Virus record (IMG/VR): IMGVR_UViG_3300042868_002043
Location: 1-34,443 of that record
Length of the DNA: 34,443 nt
From: a virus
Strand: one strand, 5' to 3'
Made by a program: the position numbers and the translations under genes. How positions within the stretch are numbered: the first letter of the stretch is position 1; each line of letters starts with the position of its first letter. The notes under the pieces were generated by a model. It did not search any database. It was not told where the DNA came from and saw nothing but the letters and a program-made list of their open reading frames with translations. This document shows positions 4,691 through 34,443 of the stretch, piece after piece.

Positions 4691-4699
4691 TTTTAATCC

Positions 4700-6807: not shown

Positions 6808-6837
6808 AGGCACCGAGTAGTTATCGGGAATGCCCGA

Positions 6838-6867
6838 AATGTAACACAAACTTTAAAATTTTTGCAA
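6838..6867 (-). promoter_or_regulatory. Candidate late promoter for terS operon
   Basis: On the minus strand TTGCAA (6862-6867) and TACATT (6838-6843) are 18 bases apart, and TGT directly before the -10 gives an extended -10. Transcription would start near 6831 with a short leader to the terS ATG at 6807. The match is moderate and no other minus-strand candidate is clearly better. Confidence 0.4.
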
Positions 6868-6983
6868 AATTTTTTTTGACTGCCCGATTTATTTTGCACC
6901 GGGGGGTGTTTGGGTGAAGAGCTTTGTAGCATTGTGGTACAGAAAACATAAGGGGGAGGGGGGATTTTTAATTTAGCTGTTCG

Positions 6984-6998
6984 ACAGTGCAACACTGT
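6984..6998. repeat. Inverted repeat ACAGTG-CAA-CACTGT
   Basis: Perfect 6-bp arms around three bases lie in the middle of the divergent control region. The size and spacing suit a dimeric helix-turn-helix operator. It is unrelated in sequence to the 14-bp palindrome family. Confidence 0.5.
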
Positions 6999-7063
6999 GT
7001 GTATAGGATCACGGGACTCCTATGTGTTAAATCTGGGGTGTGGGGTGTCGGTGTCGGCAAAAT

Positions 7064-7077
7064 CTAACATTTGTTAG
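7064..7077 (-). repeat. 14-bp palindrome, reversed exact copy
   Basis: Reads CTAACATTTGTTAG on the plus strand, the exact complement of the consensus. It is the leftmost member of the family and lies about 37 bases upstream of the proposed early promoter -35. Confidence 0.9.
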
Positions 7078-7113
7078 CCCTTATCCCCCCTATTTATTTT
7101 GTTTATTTATTAC

Positions 7114-7141
7114 TTGCTATTATTTTGCACCACGTTATAAT
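7114..7141 (+). promoter_or_regulatory. Candidate early promoter upstream of the first rightward gene
   Basis: TTGCTA (7114-7119) and a perfect TATAAT (7136-7141) are separated by 16 bases. Transcription would start near 7148, giving a leader of about 80 bases before the ATG at 7230. Confidence 0.55.
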
Positions 7142-7180
7142 AGACCCATGGCAACGAAAAAAGCTTTGTTGTTATGCTTA

Positions 7181-7209
7181 GGTAGCTAGCGGGTTTTTCC
7201 AAAGCTACC
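7181..7209 (+). promoter_or_regulatory. Leader hairpin before the first early gene
   Basis: GGTAGCT (7181-7187) pairs with AGCTACC (7203-7209) around a 15-base loop. A half palindrome (ATGTTAG, 7210-7216) and the ribosome site follow at once. It may affect translation of the gene at 7230; no U-tract follows, so it is not a terminator. Confidence 0.4.
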
Positions 7210-7229
7210 ATGTTAGAAAAGGTTAGATT

Positions 7230-7766
7230 ATGTCTACTCAAGTTATTTCGTCTCCCGCCGTTGACACCGGCATTTTATCCATCGCACGCAATGCACTGGT
7301 TGAGGGTGTAACTAAAACCGGTGTTGTAATTGAGAACTACTCAAGTGCTATTGCATCGGTATTCGATCGCAAGGATACCAACGGCAACGTCATTGCAAAA
7401 TGGTATGACCTAGACGGCAAAGAAGCAAAGGGTATCAAGTTAGAGAAATCATTATTCGCTAACACCCTAATGGATCGTGATCCTAAGTTCATCAAGTCTA
7501 TTGATGCCGATGGAAAGCGTACACATACGGCAACAGTTGACACCTACTGGATGCGCGTGAAGATCGCTAGCGGATACGTGCCAAAGGGTAAACTCAAAGG
7601 TTCAAATGACGTTGACGCAAAAACGGCAACAGAATTGAAGACCATGATAAACCGGATTCTAGGTGCGGAAGAAGCCGGACAAGAGTGCCACGCTAGCACT
7701 ATTCTAGAAAACCTTAAGAACAGCTACTTTGTTCTTACTGGTGAAGCTTACAACGCCAACAAGTAA
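7230..7766 (+). CDS. Early protein of unknown function (178 aa)
   Basis: First gene of the rightward operon. The ATG at 7230 follows a leader (GTTAGAAAAGGTTAGATT) closely similar to the leader of the gene at 8947. The 178-residue protein is soluble with no membrane segment or cysteine cluster apart from one Cys near the C-terminus. It includes SVFDRKDTNGNVIAKWYDLDG and LFANTLMDRDPKFIKSIDADGKR, which look like beta-hairpin turns, and ends AYNANK. I do not recognise the family. As the promoter-proximal gene it could be a highly expressed early protein. A stable hairpin follows it at 7777-7800. Confidence 0.75.
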   Translation: MSTQVISSPAVDTGILSIARNALVEGVTKTGVVIENYSSAIASVFDRKDTNGNVIAKWYDLDGKEAKGIKLEKSLFANTLMDRDPKFIKSIDADGKRTHTATVDTYWMRVKIASGYVPKGKLKGSNDVDAKTATELKTMINRILGAEEAGQECHASTILENLKNSYFVLTGEAYNANK

Positions 7767-7776
7767 GTAAACGACG

Positions 7777-7800
7777 GAACCTAGGGGAAACCCTAGGTTC
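7777..7800 (+). promoter_or_regulatory. Stable GNRA-capped hairpin between genes
   Basis: GAACCTAGGG (7777-7786) and CCCTAGGTTC (7791-7800) form a perfect 10-bp stem closed by a GAAA tetraloop. There is no T-tract; a 14-bp palindrome follows directly. An mRNA-stabilising 3' end, processing site or attenuator is more likely than an intrinsic terminator. Confidence 0.7.
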
Positions 7801-7813
7801 TAACAAATGTTAG
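7800..7813 (+). repeat. 14-bp palindrome, exact copy
   Basis: Exact consensus directly after the hairpin and 17 bases before the ATG at 7831. Its internal ATG (7807) is in frame with that gene. Confidence 0.95.
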
Positions 7814-7830
7814 ATTTTAAGGGGAACAAA

Positions 7831-8043
7831 ATGAAACCATCGTTCAAGCATGATTGTGATAAGTGTAAGTTTGTCGGCAAAGTATTTCGAGCCCTTGATT
7901 TGTATGGCGAGAAAAAGGGTGTTGCAGATTTGTACTTGTCGTGCAATTATGTAAACGAAATTGGGGCTAAGTACATTTTGCGTTGTTCAAGCAAAGATTA
8001 CGATTACATCACGACAAGCAATTTAGACACTTGGATTGTATAA
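7831..8043 (+). CDS. Small CxxC protein (70 aa)
   Basis: I chose the ATG at 7831 because AAGGGG lies 6-11 bases upstream. An in-frame ATG inside the palindrome at 7807 would add MLDFKGNK and has no ribosome site. The protein begins MKPSFKHDCDKCKFVG, with a C-x2-C pair, and later shows LYLSCNY and KYILRCSSKDYDYIT. This resembles a recurrent family of small phage and plasmid proteins with 'HDCDKC.F.G...YDLY.C....I.RYG....Y.S' order, of unknown function, which probably bind zinc. It is followed after 10 bases by the next small gene. Confidence 0.75.
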   Translation: MKPSFKHDCDKCKFVGKVFRALDLYGEKKGVADLYLSCNYVNEIGAKYILRCSSKDYDYITTSNLDTWIV

Positions 8044-8053
8044 GGGGAAAATC

Positions 8054-8263
8054 ATGGAATTAAATTTGGAACAAAAACAAAACCTTCTAGAAGCATTACA
8101 CAATAAGGTAATGGGAGACATTCAACAATATGTTAGTGGGCTAACCACTTTGCCAGAGTTGGCAATTTCAATCGGCAATGTTGAACGGGTTTACACGCAA
8201 CGTATTGAATCCATGACGGGTTTACTTTGCCCCAATACTGGCTTACGTTTCCCGCACAACTAA
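8054..8263 (+). CDS. Small protein of unknown function (69 aa)
   Basis: The ATG at 8054 follows AAGGGGAAAATC, a good ribosome site; an upstream ATG at 8036 overlaps the previous gene and lacks one. The protein is mostly helical (LNLEQKQNLLEALHNKVMGDI) and ends GLLCPNTGLRFPHN. I do not recognise a family. It is the last gene before a strong terminator at 8282-8306, so it closes the first early transcript. Confidence 0.65.
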   Translation: MELNLEQKQNLLEALHNKVMGDIQQYVSGLTTLPELAISIGNVERVYTQRIESMTGLLCPNTGLRFPHN

Positions 8264-8281
8264 ACCTAATGTTACAAAACC

Positions 8282-8306
8282 CAGCCCGCTTTATGCGGGC
8301 TTTTTT
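8282..8306 (+). terminator. Rho-independent terminator
   Basis: AGCCCGC (8283-8289), loop TTTAT and GCGGGCT (8295-8301) are followed by a six-T run. It ends the first early transcript. The downstream bases TTTTTTGCGTCTGT nearly match those after the terminator at 17662-17684. Confidence 0.9.
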
Positions 8307-8316
8307 GCGTCTGTCT

Positions 8317-8330
8317 CTAACAAATGTTAG
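8317..8330 (+). repeat. 14-bp palindrome, exact copy
   Basis: Exact consensus 10 bases after the terminator T-run. No gene starts here, so this copy is not explained by start-codon function. Confidence 0.95.
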
Positions 8331-8370
8331 CGTACCACTAAGTTATTTTTCCCCGAAGTTTTTGTCGTGT

Positions 8371-8394
8371 ACCAGTTCTCTGTGCGGGGGTAGG
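8371..8394 (+). repeat. 24-bp direct repeat, copy 1
   Basis: The 24 bases beginning ACCAGTTCTCTGTGCG and ending GGGGTAGG recur exactly at 8432-8455, 61 bases later start to start. The G-rich end is shared. Confidence 0.9.
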
Positions 8395-8431
8395 GGCAGT
8401 GCTTAAAATTTAAGCGATGTTACAAAACTGC

Positions 8432-8455
8432 ACCAGTTCTCTGTGCGGGGGTAGG
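8432..8455 (+). repeat. 24-bp direct repeat, copy 2
   Basis: Exact second copy of the unit at 8371-8394. A TGTTAC half-site lies shortly before it and a palindrome copy shortly after. Confidence 0.9.
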
Positions 8456-8468
8456 ACTAAGCGCAGTT

Positions 8469-8482
8469 CTAACAAATGTTAT
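8469..8482 (+). repeat. 14-bp palindrome, one mismatch
   Basis: CTAACAAATGTTAT; only the last base departs from consensus. It lies in the noncoding region just before the densest group of TGTTAC half-sites. Confidence 0.85.
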
Positions 8483-8596
8483 GTTCCCATGTTGCAATGT
8501 TACGCCTAATGTTACGTTGCAATTCACGTAAGTTGTTGATTTTAAAGCAATGTTATATGTTACGTTTTTTTCGAAATGGGTGTGAGAGTCCGCAGG

Positions 8597-8609
8597 GACA
8601 AGACTTGTC
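8597..8609. repeat. Inverted repeat GACAAG-A-CTTGTC
   Basis: Perfect 6-bp arms around one base in the noncoding region. It may be an operator; a one-base loop makes it unlikely as an RNA hairpin. Confidence 0.45.
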
Positions 8610-8835
8610 GGAAAGTGCAAATCGAAGTACAATATATTCTAGGAAAGCCACACACACTATTATTGAAATTTTATAACTTTATAACATAACCCATTTTTTC
8701 GCTTCCAACCCCTTGATTCCATTGAGTTTTATAATGTTACATGTCAAAACTTCCGCACGTAACATTCCACAACATTGCCCCTAAAAACATAACACAGGAA
8801 CGTAACATTATCCCCGATTGCAATCGCCCAAACAC

Positions 8836-8864
8836 TTGACTTAAGTGTAACTTTGTGGTATAAT
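8836..8864 (+). promoter_or_regulatory. Strong sigma-70-type promoter with extended -10
   Basis: TTGACT (8836-8841), a 17-base spacer and a perfect TATAAT (8859-8864) preceded by TGG form an extended -10 promoter. It shares AAACACTTGAC and GTGGTATAAT with the promoter at 11061-11089. It would drive the small-gene operon starting at 8947. Confidence 0.85.
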
Positions 8865-8923
8865 TAAAGCATGGGTCGGGGATATTATTTTGTAACTTTA
8901 GGTTTGCCCCCGATCTTGCAAAC

Positions 8924-8937
8924 CTAACAAATGTTAG
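8924..8937 (+). repeat. 14-bp palindrome, exact copy
   Basis: Exact consensus in the leader of the 8947 gene, about 53 bases downstream of the proposed transcription start and directly upstream of the ribosome site AAAGG. Confidence 0.95.
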
Positions 8938-8946
8938 AAAGGTTAG

Positions 8947-9165
8947 ATGATGATTACAACCACAATCCGCGTGGGTCTGCGCACGTTGACCAACGGCACT
9001 AAGTTGTCGGTCTATCGTTGCTTGTTGGATGGCATGCAAGGTGTCGAAACTGACGAGCAAGCTATCGAGTATGTACGTACTCGAATCAATAACGATTGGG
9101 GTCTCAATCGTGGCATGTTGCTTAACTGCATCGACAACAACGACTACTCAATAGAAAGGGGCTAA
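8947..9165 (+). CDS. Small early protein of unknown function (72 aa)
   Basis: First gene of the second early operon. ATG codons at 8947 and 8950 are adjacent; either works with the AAAGG upstream. The protein MMITTTIRVGLRTLTNG continues through LLDGMQGVETDEQAIEYVRTRI, an alpha/beta pattern, and has no cysteine pairs or membrane segment. I do not recognise the family. Its TAA stop (9163-9165) is part of the next palindrome, and the following gene starts 3 bases later in the same frame. Confidence 0.65.
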   Translation: MMITTTIRVGLRTLTNGTKLSVYRCLLDGMQGVETDEQAIEYVRTRINNDWGLNRGMLLNCIDNNDYSIERG

Positions 9166-9175
9166 CAAATGTTAG
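9162..9175 (+). repeat. 14-bp palindrome spanning a stop/start junction
   Basis: Exact consensus. It contains the TAA stop of the 8947 gene and the ATG start of the 9169 gene. Confidence 0.95.
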
Positions 9176-9405
9176 AAACCAATCTTGACTGGAAACTATG
9201 TAGCGACTGCGAAGATGAAATATCAACCGAACGGCATCAAGCGTTCTGCATCTTCTGTGAACAAGACCGAGAGCGTAGTGCAGGTGAGGAACGTAGTTCT
9301 TGGTGCGTAGTCCAAGAGTATGGTAAGGGTAACTACCAACTTGTTACACCTGCGAGCGCACGTACAACGCTCAAACAGACTAATCAAAAAGAACTGAGGG
9401 GCTGA
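9169..9405 (+). CDS. Small zinc-ribbon-like protein (78 aa)
   Basis: The only methionine is the ATG inside the palindrome, preceded by AAAGGGG at good spacing, so here the palindrome ATG is clearly the start. The N-terminal half has two CxxC pairs, LCSDCEDE and AFCIFCEQD, about 17 residues apart, the layout of a DksA/TraR-like or other treble-clef zinc finger. The C-terminal half is basic and polar. Small DksA-like zinc proteins can bind RNA polymerase, but the match is limited to the cysteine spacing, so this is only a possibility. Confidence 0.75.
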   Translation: MLETNLDWKLCSDCEDEISTERHQAFCIFCEQDRERSAGEERSSWCVVQEYGKGNYQLVTPASARTTLKQTNQKELRG

Positions 9406-9408
9406 GCC

Positions 9409-9612
9409 ATGGTTAGACACACCTTTTATATTGAACACGAAGACGGAACAGTCCTTGAATGGACTGGCATGAGCTTCAAGAAAGCTAGGGACATGCTTGC
9501 CTATACGCATACACACAAACCCGAGGGCGCATGCCGATTCGGTTGGTACGAGGAAGCCCATCCTGTTATGGGCGAGGAACTAAATCTAACAAATGTTAGG
9601 GAGGCGCGATGA
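9409..9612 (+). CDS. Small protein of unknown function (67 aa)
   Basis: The ATG at 9409 follows GAGGGG, 3 bases after the previous stop. The sequence MVRHTFYIEHEDGTVLEWTG suggests a beta-hairpin, followed by a helix (SFKKARDMLAY). The C-terminus reads ELNLTNVREAR: the LTNVR part is the palindrome read in frame, so the operator-like sequence is written into the protein tail. It overlaps the next gene by 4 bases. Confidence 0.65.
   Translation: MVRHTFYIEHEDGTVLEWTGMSFKKARDMLAYTHTHKPEGACRFGWYEEAHPVMGEELNLTNVREAR
9586..9599 (+). repeat. 14-bp palindrome, exact, merged with a ribosome site
   Basis: Exact consensus whose right arm runs into GGGAGG, the ribosome site of the gene at 9609. It encodes LTNV at the end of the preceding protein. 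Confidence 0.95.
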
Positions 9613-9782
9613 AATATTACCCAATGGTTTGGATACTGTGGTGCAACGACAAAGGTGAGCAAGGCGTTCACATTGAAGAGTTGTTTGCCCACAAGATTGA
9701 TGCCGAGGCTTACATGCGAGCGTGTGAGATAGAAGATAAACAGAGCCATTACTGGATACAAGAAAAGAAGGTGGTGCAATGA
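9609..9782 (+). CDS. Small protein of unknown function (57 aa)
   Basis: The ATG at 9609 follows GGGAGGCG at ideal spacing and overlaps the previous stop. The peptide starts MKYYPMVWILWCNDKGEQG and includes an aromatic N-terminal strand, HIEELFAHKIDAEAYMRACE (helix) and ends EKKVVQ. The pattern, a short strand followed by 'F....DAEAYM', resembles small phage proteins that align a query strand with a helix, but I know no function. It overlaps the next gene by 4 bases (ATGA). Confidence 0.7.
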   Translation: MKYYPMVWILWCNDKGEQGVHIEELFAHKIDAEAYMRACEIEDKQSHYWIQEKKVVQ

Positions 9783-9943
9783 GACCAAGACACGTGAAGG
9801 TGGACAAGTTGTCCAAGCGAGTGAGTCAGACCGACTACTTACAAATGTTAGGAGAGGCGATGAAGTTCGCACGAGTGGAGGAGAGCAAGCCTGTACTCAA
9901 TACCAAAGAGTTGCCCATACACACAAAGCGGGAGGTCAAATGA
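9779..9943 (+). CDS. Small basic protein of unknown function (54 aa)
   Basis: The ATG overlaps the previous stop (ATGA) and follows GAAGGTGG. The protein MRPRHVKVDKLSKRVSQ is strongly basic, consistent with nucleic-acid binding. A palindrome variant lies inside it (9838-9851) and encodes the YLQMLG region. A second in-frame ATG at 9845 within that copy could give a 32-residue product. It ends overlapping the next gene (ATGA at 9940-9943). Confidence 0.55.
   Translation: MRPRHVKVDKLSKRVSQTDYLQMLGEAMKFARVEESKPVLNTKELPIHTKREVK
9838..9851 (+). repeat. 14-bp palindrome variant inside a gene
   Basis: CTTACAAATGTTAG, with one mismatch at the third base, the only copy with a change inside the core. 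It lies mid-gene with an in-frame ATG and GGAGAGGCG just after it. Confidence 0.7.
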
Positions 9944-10119
9944 CTGATGCAGAAAAGATTGAACTGTTGAATGAGGCGTTGAACAACCTCACGCAGTCTG
10001 CCTATGAATACATTAAAGATAAATCATCTTTCACAGTGGAAACACTGACCCTTGATATTGATAACGCCAATGCGGTATTGAAACAGATACCCCCTAAATC
10101 TTGGAACTTGGGAGGCTAA
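9940..10119 (+). CDS. Small acidic helical protein (59 aa)
   Basis: The ATG overlaps the previous stop and follows GGGAGG. The protein MTDAEKIELLNEALNNLTQ is helical, continues with SAYEYIKDKSSFTVETLTLD and ends SWNLGG, where the GGGAGG encoding the last residues is also the ribosome site of the next gene. No family recognised. Its TAA stop is part of the palindrome at 10116-10129. Confidence 0.65.
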   Translation: MTDAEKIELLNEALNNLTQSAYEYIKDKSSFTVETLTLDIDNANAVLKQIPPKSWNLGG

Positions 10120-10129
10120 CAAATGTTAA
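10116..10129 (+). repeat. 14-bp palindrome spanning a stop/start junction
   Basis: CTAACAAATGTTAA, last base changed. Contains the TAA of the upstream gene and the ATG of the 29-residue gene. Confidence 0.85.
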
Positions 10130-10212
10130 CTAAATGGGAGAAGCTAGAACGTGTGGTGATACTGCTCGCCTGTATTGTCCTAGCCCTTGATTTACTTTAT
10201 TGGAGACCTTAA
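10123..10212 (+). CDS. Tiny single-span membrane peptide (29 aa)
   Basis: The ATG lies in the palindrome and has GGGAGG upstream. The peptide starts MLTKWEKLER and continues with VVILLACIVLALDLLYW, one hydrophobic span of about 17 residues after a charged N-terminus, which predicts N-in topology, and ends RP. Size and form suit a small inner-membrane effector, but it lies among early genes rather than in a lysis module, so calling it a holin is not justified. It is bounded on both sides by palindrome copies in the same stop-CAA-ATG arrangement. Confidence 0.55.
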   Translation: MLTKWEKLERVVILLACIVLALDLLYWRP

Positions 10213-10222
10213 CAAATGTTAG
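10209..10222 (+). repeat. 14-bp palindrome spanning a stop/start junction
   Basis: TTAACAAATGTTAG, first base changed. Contains the TAA of the membrane peptide gene and the ATG at 10216. Confidence 0.85.
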
Positions 10223-10695
10223 AAGCAAGCATGAAAATGAAACTGTTCTACCCCATACGACCATGGGAGAACGAGCCCGACCATGCGGAGTGGGTACAGG
10301 AAGTTAGTGGGTACAAGTGCCGTATATCTAGGATGGAAGGGTCAGGTGCGCTATGTGGTTACGTGGGTATACCCAAAGACAATGTGTTCTGGGGCGTGAT
10401 CTATGACGAGGGTAACGAAGAACTTGATGCCATAGCTGACGATGTGCATGGTGGGTTCACCTATACGGAGGAAGGCGATGATGGGTATTGGTACTTTGGG
10501 TTCGACACAACCCATGCCAATGACTTTGCACCTAAGTTGGTAGAGCTACTGATTGAGTTCGGTCGCAAGGACTTGCCGTTCACCGACTGCATGAACTACA
10601 AGACATGGGAGTTTGTCGAAGATCAAATCTTTTGGTTGGGCAAACGACTGTGGCAATACAACGAATACCACAAGAATGGGTGCAGAAATGTATGA
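10216..10695 (+). CDS. Conserved phage protein, HGGxTY / FGFD family (159 aa)
   Basis: The palindrome ATG (MLEASMKMKLF) follows TGGAGA; an internal ATG at 10231 is a possible alternative. The middle is diagnostic of a family I have seen in phages and prophages: CGYVGIPKDN, then DDVHGGFTYTEEG and YWYFGFDTTHANDFAP, with a helical C-terminus. The conserved His, Gly and Asp residues look like an active or metal-binding site, but no function is established to my knowledge. The aromatic and acidic richness suits a soluble enzyme-like domain. The end overlaps the next gene. Confidence 0.75.
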   Translation: MLEASMKMKLFYPIRPWENEPDHAEWVQEVSGYKCRISRMEGSGALCGYVGIPKDNVFWGVIYDEGNEELDAIADDVHGGFTYTEEGDDGYWYFGFDTTHANDFAPKLVELLIEFGRKDLPFTDCMNYKTWEFVEDQIFWLGKRLWQYNEYHKNGCRNV

Positions 10696-12886: not shown

Positions 12887-12900
12887 GTAACAAATGTTAG
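12887..12900 (+). repeat. 14-bp palindrome at the VWA gene start
   Basis: GTAACAAATGTTAG, first base changed. Supplies the start ATG at 12894, preceded by AAAGG. Confidence 0.85.
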
Positions 12901-14177
12901 AAGAACGTAAAGTACAGAAGGCGAAGATTACATTGATGCGTGACCCGAGGTTTGCCCTTTGGTCTGGTATCTTGATGGTTGGTCGTACGAGTGTAGTGGA
13001 TAACATCCCAACTGCATGCACCAACGGAAGAGACGAGAAGTATGGTCGCAAGTTCGTGGCTATGCTCAAAGAGCCTGAGTTGAATTTCGTGGTACTCCAT
13101 GAGAATCTGCACAAGGCTTTCCGTCACCTGACTACATGGAAGAAACTCCATGACGAGAATCACTCGCTGGCAAATGCGGCTTGTGACTACGTGATTAACC
13201 TCAAGCTCAAAGACCTCGATCCTAGCGAGCGTGTCATTGCCATGCCACGTTGGGCAGATGGTGAGTTGAAGGGTAAGCCGATGGGGTTGGTTGACGAGAA
13301 GTATCGTGGACTCAATGCCAAGCAAGTGTTCGATCTACTCAAAGAGGAGGAGAAGGGCAAGGGCGACGAGGGCGAGGGCAACCCCTGTGATGATGGAGAC
13401 CCCTCAGATCAAGAGGGTGGGCCTAACAAAAGTCAGGGTAAGGGTACGAGCAAAGGTGCAGGGCAGGGCTTTGATGACCACGATTGGGATGGTGCGAAGG
13501 AGATGACCGAGGAGGAGAAGAAGGTTCTCGAGCGTGAGATAGATCAGGCTATTCGCCAAGGAGTAATGGCGCATCAGAAGATCGCGGGAACTGGTGGTGG
13601 TGATCTTGATCGGGACTTGCTCGAGTTGCTCGAACCCAAGGTTGACTGGCGTGAAATGTTGCGTGAGTTCGTGAAGTCTACGTGTAGCGCAAAAGATACA
13701 TCGTCATGGCGTAAGGTAAATCGTAGGTTCTTGTCTATGGGTACGTACATGCCTAGCTTGATCGGAGAGAAGGTTGGTCACATGGTTATCGCTGTGGATA
13801 CTTCAGGTTCAGTAGGACAAGAAGAGTTGTCGGGCTTCCTAACAGAAGTTAAGGGTATCGCAGAAGAAGTAAAGCCGAGCCAAGTGGACTTGATCTATTG
13901 GGATAGCCGAGTAGCCGGACACGAGGAGTACACCGAAGGTATGGTGGGCGACATTATCAACTCTACTAAACCTAGAGGTGGTGGGGGTACGTCTCCCTCA
14001 TGTGTATCTGAGTATCTGAAAGAGAAACGTATCGTGCCTGAGTGCGTCATCATGCTCACCGATGGGTACGTGGGTAACGACTGGGGTCGGGATTGGACTG
14101 CGCCTGTACTGTGGGCGATCGTAGGAGGAAACGATTGTGTTGCAGACAACGGCAAAACGATTCTTGTCAAGGATTAA
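12894..14177 (+). CDS. Metallopeptidase-like VWA-domain protein (DUF2201-like)
   Basis: The 427-residue protein joins an N-terminal zincin-like helix HENLH (residues 69-73, in VVLHENLHKAFRH) to a C-terminal von Willebrand A-like domain whose MIDAS begins AVDTSGS (Asp 302, Ser 304, Ser 306). The low-complexity middle (about 150-195) is Gly/Asp/Lys-rich. This is the architecture of the 'putative metallopeptidase plus VWA-like' proteins (PF13203 plus PF09967) that accompany MoxR-type ATPases. Whether it is an active protease is unknown, since the third zinc ligand is not obvious. It starts at the palindrome ATG, which has an AAAGG site. It probably works with the ATPase at 11217. Confidence 0.85.
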   Translation: MLEERKVQKAKITLMRDPRFALWSGILMVGRTSVVDNIPTACTNGRDEKYGRKFVAMLKEPELNFVVLHENLHKAFRHLTTWKKLHDENHSLANAACDYVINLKLKDLDPSERVIAMPRWADGELKGKPMGLVDEKYRGLNAKQVFDLLKEEEKGKGDEGEGNPCDDGDPSDQEGGPNKSQGKGTSKGAGQGFDDHDWDGAKEMTEEEKKVLEREIDQAIRQGVMAHQKIAGTGGGDLDRDLLELLEPKVDWREMLREFVKSTCSAKDTSSWRKVNRRFLSMGTYMPSLIGEKVGHMVIAVDTSGSVGQEELSGFLTEVKGIAEEVKPSQVDLIYWDSRVAGHEEYTEGMVGDIINSTKPRGGGGTSPSCVSEYLKEKRIVPECVIMLTDGYVGNDWGRDWTAPVLWAIVGGNDCVADNGKTILVKD

Positions 14178-25743: not shown

Positions 25744-28596
25744 ATGTCATCTTTCGATCTACTCGATACGGTACTGCCACCGGAAGGGCGCTACTGTGTG
25801 ATGGGGATTGGTAAGTATCCTGACCAAAATTTTGTAGATACTAAGGAAGAGGTTGAAGAGCTAGCGCAGCAGTTTGTTAAACGCAAGATTGACGTATTCT
25901 TTGGATGCGCCAAGTACGGATCGTTAAACAACCGCACCCATGAAAATGCTAAATACTTCCGTGCTCTGTGGATGGACATTGACTGTGGCCCAACCAAAGG
26001 TGTACCCGACAAAAAAGGCATTATCAAGGGCTATCTCGATCAGCAAACGGGACTCGACGAGTTCAAGAAGTTCTGCATTGCGGTCGGCTTACCAAGGCCA
26101 ATACTAGTAAGTTCTGGTTACGGCATACATGCGTACTGGCTACTAGAAGAAACAGTGTCTCGCCGAGAGTGGGAGCCACTAGCCAACAGGCTTCGTGAGT
26201 TGTGCGTTGAGCAAGGGTTGATTGTGGACTCCTCAGTTTTTGAGGCTTCACGTATCCTGCGTATCCCCGGCACATTCAATTTTAAGCAGGAAGAGCCTAA
26301 AGAGGTAACAGTACTAAATGAACTGACGCCTCGCATGACATACCAAGAAGTTAAAGACTTGCTTGGTGCGCCTGAACCAAAGGACGATGTACCCGATTTC
26401 ATTCCGCGCTCAATGAGCCCGATGATGGAAGCACTCATGGGTAACAAGGTCAAGCGGTTTAAGACGATCATGATGAAGGGTGAGGGTGGGTGCGCCCAAC
26501 TTAATCACTGCTTTGAAAACCAAAACGATATTGAAGAACCGTTGTGGCGCTCCGCTCTTTCTATTGCAGCTTTCTGCGTAGATGGAGACAAGGCCGCACA
26601 TAAACTGTCGAACAAACATGAGGGTTACGATGCCGTAGAAGTTGACAATAAAGTTAACAACCTACGTAGCAAAGGTGGCCCACATCACTGCGCGACATTT
26701 GCAAAACTCAATCCGCAAGGTTGCGAGGGTTGTATCCATAGAGGCAAAATTAAATCGCCCATCATGCTCGGTGTTGAGATTGAACAAGCCGAAGCAGAAG
26801 ATAACGAATATGCCGTCGAAGATAAAGACGGTGAGGTTGAGATACAGCATATACCAGAGTACCCGTTTCCATTCTTTCGTGGGAAGAAGGGTGGTGTCTA
26901 TATTCGCCCCGAGAGCGAAGATGACGAAGCCGAGCCCAAACTTGTGTACGAGCATGACTTGTACGTGGTCAAACGCATGCGTGACCCTGAGCTTGGAGAG
27001 ATAGCTTTGTTTCGTTTGCACCTACCGCATGACAGTGTCCGAGAGTTCAGCATCCCTACGATGGGTATCTCGTCACCCGATGAGTTGCGCAAACAGTTGG
27101 CACACAACGGAGTTGTAGCCCACAAAGCACAGTACGAATTACTTGCAAGGTATGTTGTTTTCTTTATTAAAAATTTGCAATACATTAAAAAGGCAGAAAC
27201 CATGAGAACTCAGTTTGGTTGGGTTGAGGGGAACAGCAAGTTCATCCTTGGTGATAGAGAGATTACAAAGGACGGAGTGTTTTATAGCCCGCCGTCAAGC
27301 GTTACAAAAGATATTGCCGCAAAGTTAATCACCAAAGGCACGATGGAAAAGTGGAAAGAAGCGTTCAACATGTACGCTAGACCGGGGCTTGAACCTCATG
27401 CGTTTGCCGCACTTACGGCATTTGGCTCACCACTGTTGAAATTTACAGGTCTTGAAGGTGCAATCATTAACGTGATTCATCCTGAGTCTGGTTCAGGTAA
27501 GTCGACAGCGTTGTTTATGTGCAACAGTGTGTATGGTGAACCCAAAGGGTTGACCTCTATGTACAAGGATACGTTCAACGCAAAGATGCACCAGCTCGGC
27601 GTGATGAACAATCTGCCCAATACCATTGACGAGATTACCAACCTGAGTGGCATGGAGTTCTCTGACTTGGCGTACAGCATCAGCCAAGGCCGAGGCAAAA
27701 ACAAAATGAACGGTCAGACCAACACGTTGCGTGTTAACAACACTAGCTGGCAAGGTATGACTTTGTGTTCAGCAAATGCCAGCTTCTATGAAAAGTTAGG
27801 TGTGGCAAAGAATACGCCCGATGGCGAGTCCATGCGTCTGCTTGAATACAAGATCGAGCCCAACGGCATCATCGAGGTGCAAGAGGGTAAGCAGATGTTT
27901 GACCACCAACTGCGCGAAAACTTTGGGCATGCCGGTGAAATCTACATCCAATGGGTTGTCAATAACTTGGAAGAAGCTATAGCGTTAGTGCGCAAGATTC
28001 AGGCTCGGCTTGATAGGGAAGTACAGTTTAATCAGAAGGAGCGATTCTGGTCAGGCGTGTCGGCTTGCAACATAGCTGGTGGTTTGATTGCATCTCAATT
28101 AGAACTGCACAACTACGACATGAAAGCTGTATACGACTGGCTTAAAGGCATGCTCGGTGAGATGCGGTTTGAGATACAAGCACCAAACTCAACACCCGTA
28201 ACAATCCTTGGTGAGTTTGTTAACGCCCACATTATTAACGCTTTAGTTGTAAATGGTGAGGTTGATGCTCGTAGTAACCTGCAGTCTATGCCTATGCTTG
28301 AGCCCCGTGGAGAGCTGCTCATACGCTACGAGCCAGATACCAAAGAACTCTTTATCGCGGCCAAACAATTCAAAGACTTCTGCGTCAAACAACAAATCAA
28401 TTACAAGACCACCTTGAAAGAGTTGGGTAATGCCAAGATTTACTTAGAGGGTGTGAACAAGCGAATGTCCAAAGGCATGAAGGTTGTATCCCCCGCAGTT
28501 CGGGTGCTGAAGTTTGACGCATCAGCCGCCGAGTTCTTACAGATGGATGCCTTTGTAGCTAAAGATGAAAATCGAGACGGTGTCGTATCAGATTGA
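25744..28596 (+). CDS. Primase-helicase fusion (AEP-like primase plus P-loop ATPase)
   Basis: The 950-residue protein has an N-terminal archaeo-eukaryotic-type primase pattern: FRALWMDIDCG (MDID about 77-80), SSGYGIHAYW (about 123-132) and RILRIPGTFNFK (about 170-181). A Cys cluster follows (CATF...GCEGC). The C-terminal helicase has Walker A HPESGSGKSTA (about 579-589), a TIDEIT Walker B (about 626-631) and a sensor-like MTLCSAN. This DUF927-like fusion supplies both priming and unwinding. It is the largest replication gene and works with the polymerase at 18469. Confidence 0.85.
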   Translation: MSSFDLLDTVLPPEGRYCVMGIGKYPDQNFVDTKEEVEELAQQFVKRKIDVFFGCAKYGSLNNRTHENAKYFRALWMDIDCGPTKGVPDKKGIIKGYLDQQTGLDEFKKFCIAVGLPRPILVSSGYGIHAYWLLEETVSRREWEPLANRLRELCVEQGLIVDSSVFEASRILRIPGTFNFKQEEPKEVTVLNELTPRMTYQEVKDLLGAPEPKDDVPDFIPRSMSPMMEALMGNKVKRFKTIMMKGEGGCAQLNHCFENQNDIEEPLWRSALSIAAFCVDGDKAAHKLSNKHEGYDAVEVDNKVNNLRSKGGPHHCATFAKLNPQGCEGCIHRGKIKSPIMLGVEIEQAEAEDNEYAVEDKDGEVEIQHIPEYPFPFFRGKKGGVYIRPESEDDEAEPKLVYEHDLYVVKRMRDPELGEIALFRLHLPHDSVREFSIPTMGISSPDELRKQLAHNGVVAHKAQYELLARYVVFFIKNLQYIKKAETMRTQFGWVEGNSKFILGDREITKDGVFYSPPSSVTKDIAAKLITKGTMEKWKEAFNMYARPGLEPHAFAALTAFGSPLLKFTGLEGAIINVIHPESGSGKSTALFMCNSVYGEPKGLTSMYKDTFNAKMHQLGVMNNLPNTIDEITNLSGMEFSDLAYSISQGRGKNKMNGQTNTLRVNNTSWQGMTLCSANASFYEKLGVAKNTPDGESMRLLEYKIEPNGIIEVQEGKQMFDHQLRENFGHAGEIYIQWVVNNLEEAIALVRKIQARLDREVQFNQKERFWSGVSACNIAGGLIASQLELHNYDMKAVYDWLKGMLGEMRFEIQAPNSTPVTILGEFVNAHIINALVVNGEVDARSNLQSMPMLEPRGELLIRYEPDTKELFIAAKQFKDFCVKQQINYKTTLKELGNAKIYLEGVNKRMSKGMKVVSPAVRVLKFDASAAEFLQMDAFVAKDENRDGVVSD

Positions 28597-28824: not shown

Positions 28825-28853
28825 ATCCCCAGCTAATCACTGGGGATTTTTTT
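28825..28853 (+). terminator. Rho-independent terminator closing the rightward operon
   Basis: ATCCCCAG (28825-28832), a 7-base loop and CTGGGGAT (28840-28847) are followed by seven Ts. The minus-strand giant gene ends inside this element (its stop complement is at 28837-28839). No T-run exists on the minus strand, so it works in the plus direction only. Confidence 0.9.
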
Positions 28854-31800
28854 CGGCTTTACGTTTAGTTGCCATCTCTTCGGCTCGGCGGTCTAAACGG
28901 TCTTGCAATTTATCCGCAGGCTCCCCAAGAATCGAAACATTTTTTTCTGTAATGGCTACACCGGCGCGAGAACTTGCACGTTGTTCAGCCTTCTTAAGAA
29001 GTGATTCATAGATTGCATCGGCATCAAGTCCAAACGCTGGGTACTTCTTATTAAACTTAGCCACTTCGTTTTCAATAATGTCGTCAAACTTTTCATCCCC
29101 CGCATCAGTTTCTTTACGCTTTTGGAAATCAAGCCTGTTTAATATTAAATTACGTTGGTTATTAATTTTTTGTTCAATACCAGAATATTTAAACGCTGGG
29201 CCTTGAGTTGCCGCAAGAATGTCAGGACGGAAGCCAATGGCTTGACCAATTATTTCACCCGTCTTCACATCGTCTTTACCGACTAGCTCAACACCACGAC
29301 CGGTCTTCATACCTTCATCTGCGTATTTGTTAGCAATCACAAGGTTACGGACTACGGCAGGGAGCATACGCTCCAACATTTTCTGATAGTCACCCATTGC
29401 GTAAGCATCGTAGGCGTCGGCAAAACCAAGTAACAGGCTTGCGGTTGGGCCACCAAAGTGATCCAACATAAAGGCGATTGCGCTTTCTCGGGAAGTCTTA
29501 GTCTCTTTACTATCTCGGCCCCACAAGTCAGCTAAGCCAACACGCGAAGCAATATCTTCCCCAGTGATTGCATTCAGCGGGCCACGGGTAATTAAGTCGC
29601 TTACGGGTACGCCGCCAAGCTTGACGTCACCTAAGTTCTCAGGAAGGAATACTTCAAAAACCCAAGTTTTAAAGTCAATATCTTTAAGCTCTTCAGGCCA
29701 GTCTTCATCAAGCTCTAGCTGACTCCAAGCCCACCCAGCAAGCCCCATAATGGGATTGATTAGAGCCATGTTTGCCGCACCCGCTAAGAGGAAAGAAGTG
29801 CCCATCATGCCGAACAACTTAGTAGCTGCTTCTTTTTTGCCTTCTTTATTGAGGAAGGGGAGCATCCTTTTAAAGTTAGTCAGCATCAACAAAGACATCT
29901 GCAGTGGGTACGTCTTAAACTGGAACGCAATCTTACCAATACCTTGTTGCATAAACCGTGGGCGGTTTGTAACGTCGTAGTTACCAAGTGCTTCGTTAGT
30001 AGAGTCAACTGCTTTTTGAACAGCGGTATCGTAATCAAGCCCCTGCTTCTTACCTAATCTATACGCAGCTAGATAGACGGCCTCACGACTTAAACGCTCA
30101 GTGTTGTGCATCAGAGCGCCGACCATCAAGTTTGCAAGGCGTTTGCCTTTACCTACGACACCTTCAAACTGCTCGGTGGACATACTCTTGTAGCCCCACA
30201 CCAAAGAGGCATAGGTTGACTCAGACACACCACGCGAAGTCATCTCACCAATTGCCTTGCGCTCGTCAGCAGGGAGGGTTTTGCTGTTAGCAATACTTGG
30301 CGCAGAGATAGAAGTTGTGCCGTCTGGGTTGGGGCGGAACACGCTGTACTGGTTAACTAACGTAGCCATCTTTGCAAGCTCAGTAGCCGCGCCTGTGGCG
30401 TTGTTGTAGTTACCAGCAAGTACAGGCAAACCAGAAATGAATACGCTAGAAGGCTGAATCAGCGCCGACGCAGCAGAAGACAAGTACCAGAAGTAAGATG
30501 CCTTGTTTGCAATACCAGCAACAGATTCACTTAATGAGCCGTGAGCGCCAGACAGCGCCATGTTGACACGCTTTTCAGCTTCTTGCACAAACGGAGATAA
30601 TTCTTCACGTTCACTAATTGAGTCACGCGCCTCTGATAACGCGAGGCGAAGTTGCGGTGCGTACTTTAAGCGTGCTAACTGAATGGATTGCTTAGAGGCA
30701 GTAGTTGCAATATTGCGCTGCAAGTCTGTGCTAAAACCAGCCCGACCTTTACGATGGGTAAACTGCCTACGGAAAGATTGCTCTGGCATTGTGGTCAGAT
30801 AGATTTGGTAAACCGCATCTTTCAAACCTTCTTTAGCTTCGGGCGAGCCCATGTCTTTGGCGTCAATTGCCGCAAAGACTTCCTTGAGCATTGTGCTAGC
30901 GTCTTGTGATGCGGCACGTAACTCTTTTAAATCATTACCTTGCACAAACTTTCCATCGGCTATTAGCTCAGCTAGGGTTGTACCCCGTTCCGCTGCCATT
31001 TGCTTAGCCGCTTCGTTGCGCTCTGCGCGAGTCTCAAATAAATAGAACTGACGGTTGTCACCGGAGTCAATAGCTAAGAAGAAATCACCACGGCGCACTA
31101 ACGGGAAGAAAGGTCTAATCCGTGACTCGGCTTCAAACGTCTTACGCAAGACAGCCATCAGGTTTTTCTTTTCCTCGGGGGACATGCCCTGCATGTTGCC
31201 TATCTGCTCGTCTAATATGTCGGAGTACAACTCAATGATTGACTCGTAGTAGTCCCGCAACTGCTTGTACATGCGTTGACCAACAGAGCCGAGTGCTTTG
31301 TAGTCGGCATCAAGTTGCTTGCTACGTATACGGGTGTTAGTGTCGGACGGGTCTACCTCTGCTAACGTAGTGCCGTACACAAAATCTGCAAACTTTTTGC
31401 GGCTAAGCTTTGGGTCTTCTTTAAACCCGCGATTCAAGGAATCAATTACTCGCTCAGCCCCGACCAAAAACTGCTGAGACATACCTAACATACGCTGCAG
31501 TTGAGTGTTAGCTTTGTTTAGAGCAGGTATACCCGCATCAGCGGCCCACTTAGCCAAGAAGTCAAACGTGGGTAGGCGCACAGTAGCCTCTAGCCTTGTA
31601 TACCCTAGGTCGCTAGTTACGTTAGCCAATATTTCGCGCACAGCTTTGGGGTCACGTGCCAACTGCATCAACTCAACATTCTTAGCCGCATCGCCCTCAT
31701 TAGACAGACGCACTTTTTCTTTTGCGATCTTTACGTCTCTAGCAAGCTGAAGCGCAGAACGCTGTACTTTACTGTCGGCTTCTTCGTTAAATTCGGGGGG

Positions 31801-34443
31801 AGTGAACTTGCCCTTTTGCTGGAGCGAAGTTCTTCCCATTTCAATTGCCGTGAGCCTTGTGCCAAGCATCTTGTCAGTAATGTCGACCAGATCAGAGAAC
31901 GCAGTAGCATCGCTCTGCTTAATACCAAACAAGTCACGGATGCTATTAACAAACGTAGAGAACAGGGTTGGCTCTTTGCGCACGCCCTTTACGCGCATCA
32001 AGAACTTTTGGAACTCAGGGCTGGACATGCCGTAAGCCAAGAACTCATAGGGGTTCTTAAATATGTCGTAGCTGTCTGTTTTGGGGTCGTAGGTTCTACT
32101 AACAATATCGTTAACGTCTTCGTCAACCATATCAAGGTACGCCAAGTCTTTGTACTCCTGCTCGGCACGCTTCATTATGTCGCCCATCTCACGGATGAAC
32201 TTCTGAAGACTGGCGTTTCTAAAACCTTTCAGTAGACCTGCTTGAATACGACTAGCTGTTGCTGCGTGCAGCAATTCGTGTAGCACTGTTATGTTATTTA
32301 TGCCTTGTAGGTCTCCAAAGCTACTACCACGCACGTATACAGTACGTTCTTTCTGGCCCGGCGTATAAACAAAAAGTCCACGCGCTTCTTTTAACTCTTC
32401 AAGAATATTGGCTGGGGTTGCATCACCCTTCTCAACAACCACGAACTTAACGCCGACCATAAAGTTGCGGATGCGCTGAGCTACAAACCGCTGGAACAAA
32501 TTGCCAGTCTTAATAACTTGTGCAATTGCTTGTGAGCCGGTGGTTAGATTGTTAAATCCTGTGTCGGGCTTGTCTACCCTACCTGCGGCAGAACGTAGCT
32601 TTTTGGGGATGTCCTTTGGATCAACATCGTCTTCAAGCATCTGCTTGGCACGTTTACGCACCGCTTCAGGCGCAGTCTTATCGTTTGCAACCTCGTTAAT
32701 ATACATTGCTGCATTTGCTACGCTATCCTTACCCGCAGGTGAGTTGTACGTTTCAAGCGCCGACTCCAAAGCATTAAGTTCTACTTTAGTCTCGCGGTCT
32801 AAGTCAACAGCGCCATCTTCTGCTACGGCTTTAGCTGGTCGGCCTCGGCCTGTAGAGGTAAGCGCTTTGTCAAGCTCAGCTTGGAACTTAGCAATCTTTA
32901 CGGCATCGTTTTTATCTTTAGCCTTAGCCAAATTGACAGCCGCAGTTGCTTGCTTGTTATTGTCGTACGTTGCAACTACTTCGCCATTAGTAACGTGGTC
33001 AAATTTGTTTTCGGCGTTCTTTGTGACTACATGCGGTTTAGGAGCAGGTGGCCGACCACGCCTACCTTTAGTTACTGCTCCGGCTGGTGGTGCTTCTTGT
33101 CCTTCTTGCGTTGTTTCGATGGTTTCAGAGGTTTCAGGGCCACTTATGTTTCCTTCTTGACGTTGAGTTATTTCTGTTTTTACGAGGTCGTATTCAGCAT
33201 CGCTAAGACTAGTATTAGTAAGTTCTGTGTCAAGCTGCTCGTCTGATAACGCACGGATTGTATCGAGTGTAACCGCCCCACGAGTTAACGTATAGGGCGA
33301 TGGCTTTGTTTCTGCGGGTGGCGCTTGTACGTATTTGCTAACGTCAACATTTGGAAGTTGAGCTTGTATCTCTTCTGGCGTTTTGCCCGTTGCAAGTAAT
33401 CGTTTAACGCGAATGCCCTGTGCAATTTCTGTAGCGCGTTCTTTTACGCCCGGCTCGTTTGCGTAGTCTTGTATTTCTTTAGGACTAGCAAAAGCTTTGC
33501 CGTCTTCTTTAGCCGCAATTAGGATTGGGTCTTCATTACCAGCAAATTTTGTTGAACCCTTTTTATATGCGTCAAACATGCCTTGATACATGTTATCCAC
33601 AATTGCATTGCCGGTACTGCCAAATGCGGCTGTTAGATTGTCTAGTGGAGCTTGCTCAGTTGTTTCTCCAACAGTAACTCCTGCAGTAGTCTGTCCAGCA
33701 GGAACCACTCCACTTGTGACAGGCTCAACAACTCCTCCGGGGGGGAGCCCTGTACTGGACTGTCCAGCCAAATCAACGCTTTCTCCACTTGGAGTACTGA
33801 TAGGTTCAACAACATTTGCTGCTCCTCCTGTTTCTGTCTGCGCAAGCTCATCTGCCTGTAACTCCTCTTGGGCTAGCCTTTGTGCGTCAAGCACCGCCTG
33901 TTGTGGGTCAACACCAGCGGCAATTAAATCTTGTGTAATTTCTTCTACACGACCTTCAGGTATTTTAATAGCCGCAGATTTAGCTTCTGCTTTTAACTGA
34001 GCATCAACTTTGCGTGTGGCAATACCCTCGGCATTTTCTGCGGGTATACCCTGCTGTAAATTAATTTCAGTAAGCGCGGCAATCCGCTCAGCGCGTACTT
34101 GTTCTGGCGTTGTTGCCGTTGTTTGCGTAGCAGGGGGAGGGGGAGGCGCTGCCTCAAACAACTCAGAACTTAAATCTTTGCCTTCAGTAGTTTTAGCGGC
34201 GATCTTGGTTTCTTTGCCAAACAACTCAGAACTTAAATCTTTACCTTTAGCGCCACGGTTACGCGCACCTGTAGCTACTTCAGCAAGGCCACCGGGGAGG
34301 TCTGCTAAACCTTCAACAAGAACGTCTAAGGGCTTGTTTTCGCCTGTTAATATTTGCCCGCCAGCCTCGCCAGCCATGCCGGAGCCAACTTGAACACCAG
34401 CTTCTTTTGCGCCAGCCGTAACCGCTGCTTTGCGGGATATACC
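28837..34443 (-). CDS. Giant polyvalent virion-type protein with zincin motif, 5' end beyond window
   Basis: At least 1868 residues are visible; the frame is open to the right edge, so the first ATG in view (34377) need not be the start. The N-terminal 700 residues are low-complexity, with a duplicated KDLSSELF peptide and two AT-hook-like RGRP motifs. Near residue 722 is LHELLHA, a zincin HExxH, with PYEFLAYG about 100 residues later as a possible third ligand. The C-terminal third has hydrophobic segments (MGTSFLLAGAANMALIN) and a QFKTYPLQM block like those of PLxRFG/large polyvalent proteins. It probably enters the cell with the DNA or lies inside the virion. It ends the leftward late operon. 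Confidence 0.85.
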   Translation of the reverse strand, partial: GISRKAAVTAGAKEAGVQVGSGMAGEAGGQILTGENKPLDVLVEGLADLPGGLAEVATGARNRGAKGKDLSSELFGKETKIAAKTTEGKDLSSELFEAAPPPPPATQTTATTPEQVRAERIAALTEINLQQGIPAENAEGIATRKVDAQLKAEAKSAAIKIPEGRVEEITQDLIAAGVDPQQAVLDAQRLAQEELQADELAQTETGGAANVVEPISTPSGESVDLAGQSSTGLPPGGVVEPVTSGVVPAGQTTAGVTVGETTEQAPLDNLTAAFGSTGNAIVDNMYQGMFDAYKKGSTKFAGNEDPILIAAKEDGKAFASPKEIQDYANEPGVKERATEIAQGIRVKRLLATGKTPEEIQAQLPNVDVSKYVQAPPAETKPSPYTLTRGAVTLDTIRALSDEQLDTELTNTSLSDAEYDLVKTEITQRQEGNISGPETSETIETTQEGQEAPPAGAVTKGRRGRPPAPKPHVVTKNAENKFDHVTNGEVVATYDNNKQATAAVNLAKAKDKNDAVKIAKFQAELDKALTSTGRGRPAKAVAEDGAVDLDRETKVELNALESALETYNSPAGKDSVANAAMYINEVANDKTAPEAVRKRAKQMLEDDVDPKDIPKKLRSAAGRVDKPDTGFNNLTTGSQAIAQVIKTGNLFQRFVAQRIRNFMVGVKFVVVEKGDATPANILEELKEARGLFVYTPGQKERTVYVRGSSFGDLQGINNITVLHELLHAATASRIQAGLLKGFRNASLQKFIREMGDIMKRAEQEYKDLAYLDMVDEDVNDIVSRTYDPKTDSYDIFKNPYEFLAYGMSSPEFQKFLMRVKGVRKEPTLFSTFVNSIRDLFGIKQSDATAFSDLVDITDKMLGTRLTAIEMGRTSLQQKGKFTPPEFNEEADSKVQRSALQLARDVKIAKEKVRLSNEGDAAKNVELMQLARDPKAVREILANVTSDLGYTRLEATVRLPTFDFLAKWAADAGIPALNKANTQLQRMLGMSQQFLVGAERVIDSLNRGFKEDPKLSRKKFADFVYGTTLAEVDPSDTNTRIRSKQLDADYKALGSVGQRMYKQLRDYYESIIELYSDILDEQIGNMQGMSPEEKKNLMAVLRKTFEAESRIRPFFPLVRRGDFFLAIDSGDNRQFYLFETRAERNEAAKQMAAERGTTLAELIADGKFVQGNDLKELRAASQDASTMLKEVFAAIDAKDMGSPEAKEGLKDAVYQIYLTTMPEQSFRRQFTHRKGRAGFSTDLQRNIATTASKQSIQLARLKYAPQLRLALSEARDSISEREELSPFVQEAEKRVNMALSGAHGSLSESVAGIANKASYFWYLSSAASALIQPSSVFISGLPVLAGNYNNATGAATELAKMATLVNQYSVFRPNPDGTTSISAPSIANSKTLPADERKAIGEMTSRGVSESTYASLVWGYKSMSTEQFEGVVGKGKRLANLMVGALMHNTERLSREAVYLAAYRLGKKQGLDYDTAVQKAVDSTNEALGNYDVTNRPRFMQQGIGKIAFQFKTYPLQMSLLMLTNFKRMLPFLNKEGKKEAATKLFGMMGTSFLLAGAANMALINPIMGLAGWAWSQLELDEDWPEELKDIDFKTWVFEVFLPENLGDVKLGGVPVSDLITRGPLNAITGEDIASRVGLADLWGRDSKETKTSRESAIAFMLDHFGGPTASLLLGFADAYDAYAMGDYQKMLERMLPAVVRNLVIANKYADEGMKTGRGVELVGKDDVKTGEIIGQAIGFRPDILAATQGPAFKYSGIEQKINNQRNLILNRLDFQKRKETDAGDEKFDDIIENEVAKFNKKYPAFGLDADAIYESLLKKAEQRASSRAGVAITEKNVSILGEPADKLQDRLDRRAEEMATKRKAEKNPQ
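34155..34246 (-). repeat. 63-bp-spaced duplication inside the giant gene
   Basis: About 28 near-identical bases starting at 34155 recur from 34218, exactly 21 codons apart. Both encode KDLSSELF with a preceding Gly or Lys. It is an in-frame tandem duplication of a short linear motif. Confidence 0.75.

Follow-up and report, generated by a model that had tools for sequence, protein, structure and literature searches.

The 34,443 bases of IMG/VR virus record IMGVR_UViG_3300042868_002043 (hereafter the window, which has no end repeats) encode at their right end a giant protein (28837-34443, minus strand). In the ejection machinery of a short-tailed phage it quite likely fills the gp16 slot, as the inner-membrane component ejected last, docked to the protein encoded just upstream through a matched and exchangeable pair of terminal tags. 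That the two tags of a pair bind each other is, judging from their sequences, likely. We also lean towards a wider reading, in which unrelated short-tailed phages share one exchangeable tag code of about 15 classes that joins the tube-former to the last-ejected protein in either polarity; payload-bearing proteins could then be mixed with different tubes, and the failure of hybrids between phages P22 and Sf6 would be a tag mismatch. As far as our searches reach, which is the open-access PubMed Central literature on tags or on P22 gp16/gp20 (subscription papers being outside their scope), no such tag-pair code was found and the paired tags appear to be undescribed.

The open reading frame (ORF) of the giant has 1868 codons and is open at the right end of the contig, confirming a sequence-only reading that had proposed at least 1868 residues; its ATG-started version spans 28837-34377 and encodes 1846 amino acids (aa). 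The N-terminus, which that reading had called unseen, can be read from full-length relatives among viral contigs, those of the near set having 2049-2359 aa. The closest of these, L003, has 2053 aa and shares 95% identity in the best segment and 88% overall, so that about 230 N-terminal residues are missing from the window giant.

Each complete relative starts with a short motif of one of about 15 kinds, frequently present in two or three copies, and this N-terminal tag (N-tag) predicts the last 10-30 residues (the C-tail) of the protein encoded just upstream. Ten pairs are given here, and further classes exist beyond them:

N-tag GRDLSAELF, twice, with upstream C-tail ATVxxSGKTRQEVMDALKAKGYTVK
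N-tag YEYQGKxYD with upstream C-tail PIKLD
N-tag ADGRVLEFPDGT with upstream C-tail LKFDAxGKQI
N-tag TATNPQTGExV..WQP with upstream C-tail PPPAGF
N-tag NFFDQFD with upstream C-tail ALKANPSLxAQFDxKYG
N-tag WxVVSETP with upstream C-tail TKFxNGQTWTLKNG
N-tag GWETIVPS with upstream C-tail KYDYRIAPDGS
N-tag WWxEAPL with upstream C-tail FIAPDGTTRIK
N-tag WxPPSDAV with upstream C-tail LVGPDGxTYTK
N-tag FTSFTP or FVPL with upstream C-tail EVxKDGKxIGY

Across 72 junctions, N-tag similarity follows C-tail similarity with a partial Mantel r of 0.652 given the body and both flanks, which is reached by 0 of 999 permutations, and unsupervised N-tag and C-tail classes agree with an adjusted Rand index (ARI) of 0.79, against at most 0.093 in permutations. 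After dereplication to 56 junctions, r is 0.556 (0/999) and the ARI 0.772 (at most 0.14 in permutations); the ARI ranges from 0.60 to 0.79 as class thresholds are varied, and the later class names were assigned by eye from the clustering. The junction set leaves out L039, L040, L045, L046, L075, all loci above L194, 5'-open ORFs, same-C-module duplicates, and L144, for which no upstream ORF was found; L146, a misread frame, was removed after the 72-junction test, giving 71. The nearest neighbour by body carries the same tag in only 31 of these 71, and 41 of 84 pairs with a body score above 0.8 differ in tag. Codons at conserved tag residues often differ (the N-tags of L003 and L157 share 9 of 23), which argues for a conserved peptide rather than a recent DNA cassette, and such differences within a tag class suggest that the tag peptides are old and kept by selection.

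The same pairs recur on unrelated bodies: the FPDGT-class pair in RHph_N65 and phiM5, the PIKLD class in ct2os315, the TATNP class in Pan3, with further instances in L287 and in HK620/Sf6-type phages. The phiM5 pair, which includes phiM5_31, is listed in its record note as detected in the particle proteome; phiM5_31 has no relatives in viral_contigs. Among P22-like loci the gp20/gp16 junction is readable in 78 of 80 (no downstream ORF was obtained for L264 and L281) and sorts into a small number of classes; two of these, SSLWG and NFFDQFD, are clearly also classes of the window's family. The gp20-gp16 proteins of the P22/Sf6/HK620 group have at least two classes in common with it (SSLWG with W-DV...QYFD; QFxxKYG with NFFDQFD) on bodies unrelated in sequence. 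In a scored cross-family test, in which 36 junctions were merged to 22 rows, 17 rows had a significant N-tag class, and the best class of the C-tail was the same in 10 of the 17. New loci with other bodies, chosen by their N-terminal side and not by their C-tails, agree as well (L315, L316, L318, and two Manatee Spring phages). Single-peptide searches added little: the SETP-class peptide has no match in the phage collection, the DLSxELF peptide has two chance-level matches at E 7, one of them lying in a replication region, and the LEFPDGT-peptide matches H163-H171 were dismissed as chance (E of at least 2; one opened).

Two proteins annotated as 'hypothetical', L224 6001-8127 (RHph_N65 EVC08_011) and L226 5001-6518 (the last coding sequence of ct2os315), carry ejection tags and follow a tail-bearing partner; both are probably gp16-type ejection proteins.

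The TATNP/GF pair is also found with its motifs exchanged between the partners. In Pan3 itself TATNP belongs to the downstream protein, with PPPGF on its upstream neighbour. In SEN22-type phages it is the gp20 C-tail (TATNP..GQWQPM) that scores 69-73 against TATNP N-tags, with no other class above 26 (p 0.003); the best match of the gp16 N-terminus, which carries LPDGFVLD twice, is a weak one to the GF tails of the TATNP class (p 0.20, 0.13, and 0.02). In four loci of the Pan3 family (L320, L321, and L317 and L319, the last two near-identical in this stretch) TATNP lies close to the C-terminus of the upstream protein, the downstream protein starts with MSQLPPGFVLD, and a small ORF separates the two. 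Taking them as breaks of the pair rule was rejected because MSQLPPGFVLD starts the following large gene. L322 is more weakly consistent with the pair rule: its N-terminus is TATNP-like, and an upstream ORF has LPAGF at 15-20 residues from its end.

Published bench data on this junction come from P22/Sf6 hybrids, reportedly of the Leavitt type. P22 carrying Sf6 gp16 alone or Sf6 gp20 alone gives fewer than 10^4 plaque-forming units (PFU)/mL, and P22 carrying both gives 5 x 10^10 PFU/mL; the failed particles package Sf6 gp16, P22 gp20 loses its function without its last 33 residues, and the authors' conclusion is that gp16 has to interact with gp20 (PMC10883804). P22 belongs to the FPDGT/FTVE tag class and Sf6 to the SSLWG class, which fits single swaps that fail and a double swap that works. 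Placing the contact at the gene ends is a step of our own, not named by the hybrid authors in the accessible text of PMC10883804, and is put forward as a suggestion. The proposed docking has the geometry known from T7, where gp16 touches the C-terminal part of gp15 through its own N-terminal part (PMC8954989).

The hybrids also bear on a different role for the tags, as packaging signals that bind the scaffold or portal and load both proteins into the head instead of binding each other. The recurrence of the same tags on unrelated ejection proteins would suit such a role, as would the presence of the tag-bearing phiM5_31 in the particle proteome. However, Sf6 gp16 enters P22 virions that are yet non-functional (PMC10883804), a capsid that reads each tag would need no matched pairs, and the reversal of polarity would be left unexplained; we consider packaging signals very unlikely.

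The gene position points in the same direction as the docked, last-ejected role proposed for the giant. In L003 the order is endolysin, holin-like gene, 692-aa virion protein, proteins of 859, 361, and 521 aa, and the giant; the 361-aa gene, two genes upstream of the giant, is a PHROG 'DNA ejection protein', and the giant closes the ejection cluster as its largest gene (the window stops short of the corresponding genes). The order small, tube, last-and-largest is known for P22 and T7 (PMC8954989). The window giant is probably injected with the phage DNA, as the sequence-only reading had proposed; the homologies of its zincin and tail-700 parts, described below, and the gene position in L003 support this well, and they support the giant as a new member of a known family with an ejected-protein role.

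GRDLSAELF opens the protein in all 7 distinct loci in which internal GKDLSSELF copies are present and the gene start is covered. From its own internal copies and from its kin, the N-terminal tag of the window giant is most likely two copies of GRDLSAELF. The matching C-tail of the L003 partner (residues 488-520) is predicted to fold as beta-alpha-alpha-beta after a disordered linker, with a predicted local distance difference test score (pLDDT) of about 95. In each tag pair, one side appears to be folded and the other resembles a short motif. The model of the whole upstream partner gave generic helical matches only, the best with a Z-score of 8.9 to a helical bundle. The parts of the window giant are as follows:

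28837..34443, minus strand: giant protein of ejection type (1868 codons), truncated 5' by the end of the contig and lacking about 230 residues
34219..34245, minus strand: internal tag copy GKDLSSELF, residues 67-75
34156..34182, minus strand: second internal tag copy GKDLSSELF, residues 88-96
33049..33060, minus strand: RGRP, AT-hook-like tetrapeptide in a low-complexity region, exact in 10/16 aligned proteins; putative role
32836..32847, minus strand: second RGRP, exact in 9/16 aligned proteins; putative role
31804..32556, minus strand: zincin (MPTase-like) domain, residues ~630-880, from sequence, profile, and model matches
32266..32280, minus strand: HELLH, predicted zinc ligands H722 and H726 and general base E723, from motif and alignment
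32044..32046, minus strand: E800, predicted third zinc ligand, invariant in 11/11 divergent sequences and 50/50 rows
31156..31404, minus strand: LPD39-like stretch, residues 1014-1096 (Pfam PF18858, below cut-off)
28939..31113, minus strand: C-module, NCBIfam NF032893 tail-700 (PLxRFG), residues 1111-1835, E 9e-101, 338.4 bits
31087..31104, minus strand: PLVRRG at the PLxRFG motif column, from the family alignment
29737..29793, minus strand: residues 1551-1569, the one segment in the visible part that is strongly hydrophobic (Kyte-Doolittle)

The zincin domain matches an 'Internal virion protein' of 1337 aa (PDB ID 9sfn_G) at E 4.9e-8, and at 9.8e-12 as a profile; phiKMV gp37 is also 1337 aa long, and 9sfn_G is presumably gp37 or a near relative. 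At E<=0.01 the domain matches 115 phage records, many of which bear annotations as internal virion or ejectosome proteins. The 115 include phiKMV-type internal virion proteins, the Parlo giant, and, weakly, the virion RNA polymerase (vRNAP) of Schitoviridae; the N4-like vRNAP of KpCHEMY26 matches at E 7e-6. The residues G, H, E, H, A, T, and a later E are invariant between the window, phiKMV, phiNV3, Limnohabitans, Vibrio, Parlo, and KpCHEMY26 sequences at 20-28% identity, and HExxH with the downstream Glu is kept in all 11 divergent sequences. The sequence-only reading had placed HELLH and both RGRP motifs exactly where they are found; in 2000 composition-preserving shuffles, HExxH arises in 0.3% and two RGRP motifs in none. 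It had also staked itself on conservation of the zinc ligands, and H, E, H, and E stand in 50 of the 50 rows covering the region, some of which were retrieved with a pattern containing the HExxH motif. An intact zincin is likewise present in 38 of 41 nonredundant proteins that were retrieved by their C-module and have 700 or more residues ahead of it. The domain is a zincin-like metallopeptidase with conserved predicted ligands, for which zinc binding and proteolysis are predicted.

Structure comparison is in line with this assignment at modest scores. The model of the giant has a pLDDT of 77.7, and its zincin superposes on lethal factor (PDB ID 4pkw; Z 7.7, root mean square deviation [rmsd] 4.1, 145 residues aligned) and on residues 2124-2351 of N4 vRNAP (PDB ID 9pnt; Z 7.5, rmsd 5.2, 180 residues aligned). 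Against ejectosome structures, the giant reaches Z 7.7 with 8vb2_A, but with an rmsd of 21.9 over 300 residues, and Z 6.9 with 9vvp_W (rmsd 4.7 over 198). The comparison barely covered long parts of the C-module, and a Foldseek search of the PDB gave no match at E<=0.001. The N4 zincin was linked to lethal factor by Iyer et al. (PMC5512222), and the N4 structure paper locates HExxH in the C1 domain of vRNAP (PMC12633501); the accessible text of the phiM1 ejectosome paper mentions neither a zincin nor a metalloprotease (PMC11440229). The phiKMV gp37-type (gp16-like) protein shares the zincin, HExxH, and downstream Glu and is the last large gene of its ejection cluster; unlike the window giant, it lacks a tail-700 module at the threshold used. 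N4-like vRNAP likewise carries its zincin within an ejected giant, whereas no RNA polymerase domain was recognised in the window giant.

Residues 1111-1835 pass NCBIfam NF032893 ('tail-700, PLxRFG domain-containing protein') with 338.4 bits against a cut-off of 100, over profile positions 2-679 of 681. In tblastn searches, 133 phage records match at E<=1e-5, the best being the C-termini of 'DarB-like' or 'PLxRFG' giants; the giants of Parlo, Skulduggery, and Atu_ph08 stand at or close to the end of a run of virion genes. The window giant thus shares, over the full profile length, the C-module of the PLxRFG/tail-700 giants (NF032893; PHROG 10089 'DarB-like'; Serratia phage Parlo, Klebsiella phage SopranoGao). 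It differs from them in having PLVRRG in the PLxRFG column, which varies in the family (F, R, Y), and from Parlo in lacking a large payload, Parlo having about 1700 aa between its zincin and C-module. Pfam LPD39 (PF18858) scores 25.3 bits in the giant, below its cut-off of 27, and 37.2 bits in the relative L170. The profile searches for polyvalent-protein domains suggested by the sequence-only reading succeeded in part: tail-700 passed and the zincin was recognised, but LPD39 fell short, and beyond the zincin and the LPD39-like and tail-700 parts, profile searches recognised no set of different effector domains in the giant.

Relatives of 2.8-3.1 thousand residues carry about 900 extra residues between zincin and C-module (L170 at 1851-10610, L157, L163, L168, L174, L179, L181, L117, and L172); L170 shows, besides a second HExxH, a match to GHKL ATPases (PF13589) that just reaches the cut-off. 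The window giant has no such insert and therefore represents the short form, the chassis minus the extra payload.

The C-module match to phrog_10089, 'DarB-like antirestriction', raises the question of whether the giant is a polyvalent effector that enters the cell mainly to protect phage DNA. The payload-like inserts of the longer relatives, such as the GHKL ATPase match in L170, and the large polyvalent proteins of Iyer et al. 2017 (PMC5512222) speak for an effector of this kind. A DarB-like protein of phage JC1 has been detected by mass spectrometry in that phage's virions (PMC9144972). In the window giant, however, no methylase, helicase, ART, or other payload was recognised, the name stems from a profile label, and the part in common is the C-module and not the payload. 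We regard antirestriction as unlikely, and the 'protect or remodel' role put forward by the sequence-only reading is not supported, the zincin being the sole recognised enzyme-like domain.

Several results weigh against the docked, last-ejected role. The N-terminus and the partner gene of the giant lie outside the window, so that its tag class comes from internal copies and kin. The 521-aa upstream protein has no detectable homology to P22 gp20 (hhalign probability 0.3%), and the gp15/gp20 ('tube') slot is therefore assigned to it by position only. Three of the 41 relatives, L151, L156, and L178, have the C-module and a tag and no zincin, which is therefore not indispensable, and every structural Z-score of the giant is below 8. 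The seven misses of the cross-family test fall in P22's own class (5) and in an alpha-helical class (2). P22 and Sf6 gp16 and gp20 differ beyond their tags, so the hybrids do not isolate the tags. Finally, covariation is not confined to the focal junction: in the 48 loci where two upstream genes are available, r is 0.683 there, the control junction one gene upstream also reaches a partial r of 0.423, and none of 499 permutations attains either value. Adjacency or linkage therefore contributes, or the next junction docks as well. Non-adjacent pairs of gene ends in the same loci give r -0.006 and -0.214.

The control junction, together with the adjacency of the genes across gaps of a few bases, is what would be expected if recombination at gene borders moved a gene end and the next gene start as one piece, linking them without any binding. 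The higher focal r on the same 48 loci, the many differing codons at conserved tag residues, the same pairs on unrelated proteins, and the four loci with an intervening ORF argue otherwise, and linkage gives no explanation for TATNP and GF motifs that exchange places between the partners. Linkage as the whole cause is quite unlikely. The control junction is itself a second candidate for docking: in L003 (6639-9299) and its kin, a C-terminus GGGLGALALNNLV goes with an N-terminus IDMASVYAxRYxKxPDMLxAAVMGQSPDP (partial r 0.423).

In the docking mechanism that we infer from these observations, the giant would be a chassis of N-terminal docking tag, hydrophobic segments, low-complexity linker, zincin, and tail-700 C-module. 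Its tag would plug into the C-terminal tail of the upstream (gp15/gp20-slot) protein, in the nearest kin a predicted folded beta-alpha-alpha-beta mini-domain on a flexible linker, and the repeated GRDLSAELF motif could make several weak contacts to a multimeric tube. Once it has left the head, the giant would be anchored where its partner's tube ends; the zincin might then cleave either the giant itself, so that the remaining chain is freed, or a protein of the envelope or the host. Phages would exchange the tag pair as a unit, the tag class changing and the bodies staying. Docking domains of modular megasynthases offer an analogy, and only an analogy: there the C-terminal end of one protein pairs with the N-terminal end of the next, and the ends are exchangeable in pairs.

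If true, the tag code would provide the contact point for ejection proteins that pass the tail one by one and account for P22-like ejection genes that can be swapped only in pairs. It would allow prediction from sequence of which ejection proteins work together, name the partners of giant 'hypothetical' proteins in metagenomes, and offer a handle for loading foreign proteins onto the ejection tube in laboratory phages.

Other features read from the giant itself fared less well. The hydrophobic C-terminal part amounts to one stretch (residues 1551-1569, a 19-residue window above 1.5 on the Kyte-Doolittle scale) and is otherwise weak; a single stretch does not make membrane segments a main feature of the part seen, and a membrane protein by its C-terminus was rejected. 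The RGRP motifs lie in low-complexity sequence and are not kept in 6 and 7 of the 16 aligned proteins, and an AT-hook protein was rejected as the chief reading for this reason. Of the sequence-only reading, ejection with the DNA is well supported, whereas its AT-hook, membrane, and protect-or-remodel parts are not supported. The N-terminal third is rich in A/P/S/T/G/Q/E (composition only, measured on L003). In complete relatives, conserved hydrophobic segments follow the N-terminal tag (L003 residues 120-152; near 240-290 in L006, L012, and L021), in the part outside the window, and lie between tag and linker as a candidate membrane-inserting part.

Elsewhere in the window, a primase/helicase-like gene (25744-28596) adjoins the giant on the opposite strand and converges on it, and terminase and portal genes lie on the minus strand at the left end. 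Among the early genes, a 427-aa gene (12894-14177) matches an HNH endonuclease PHROG (phrog_1314).

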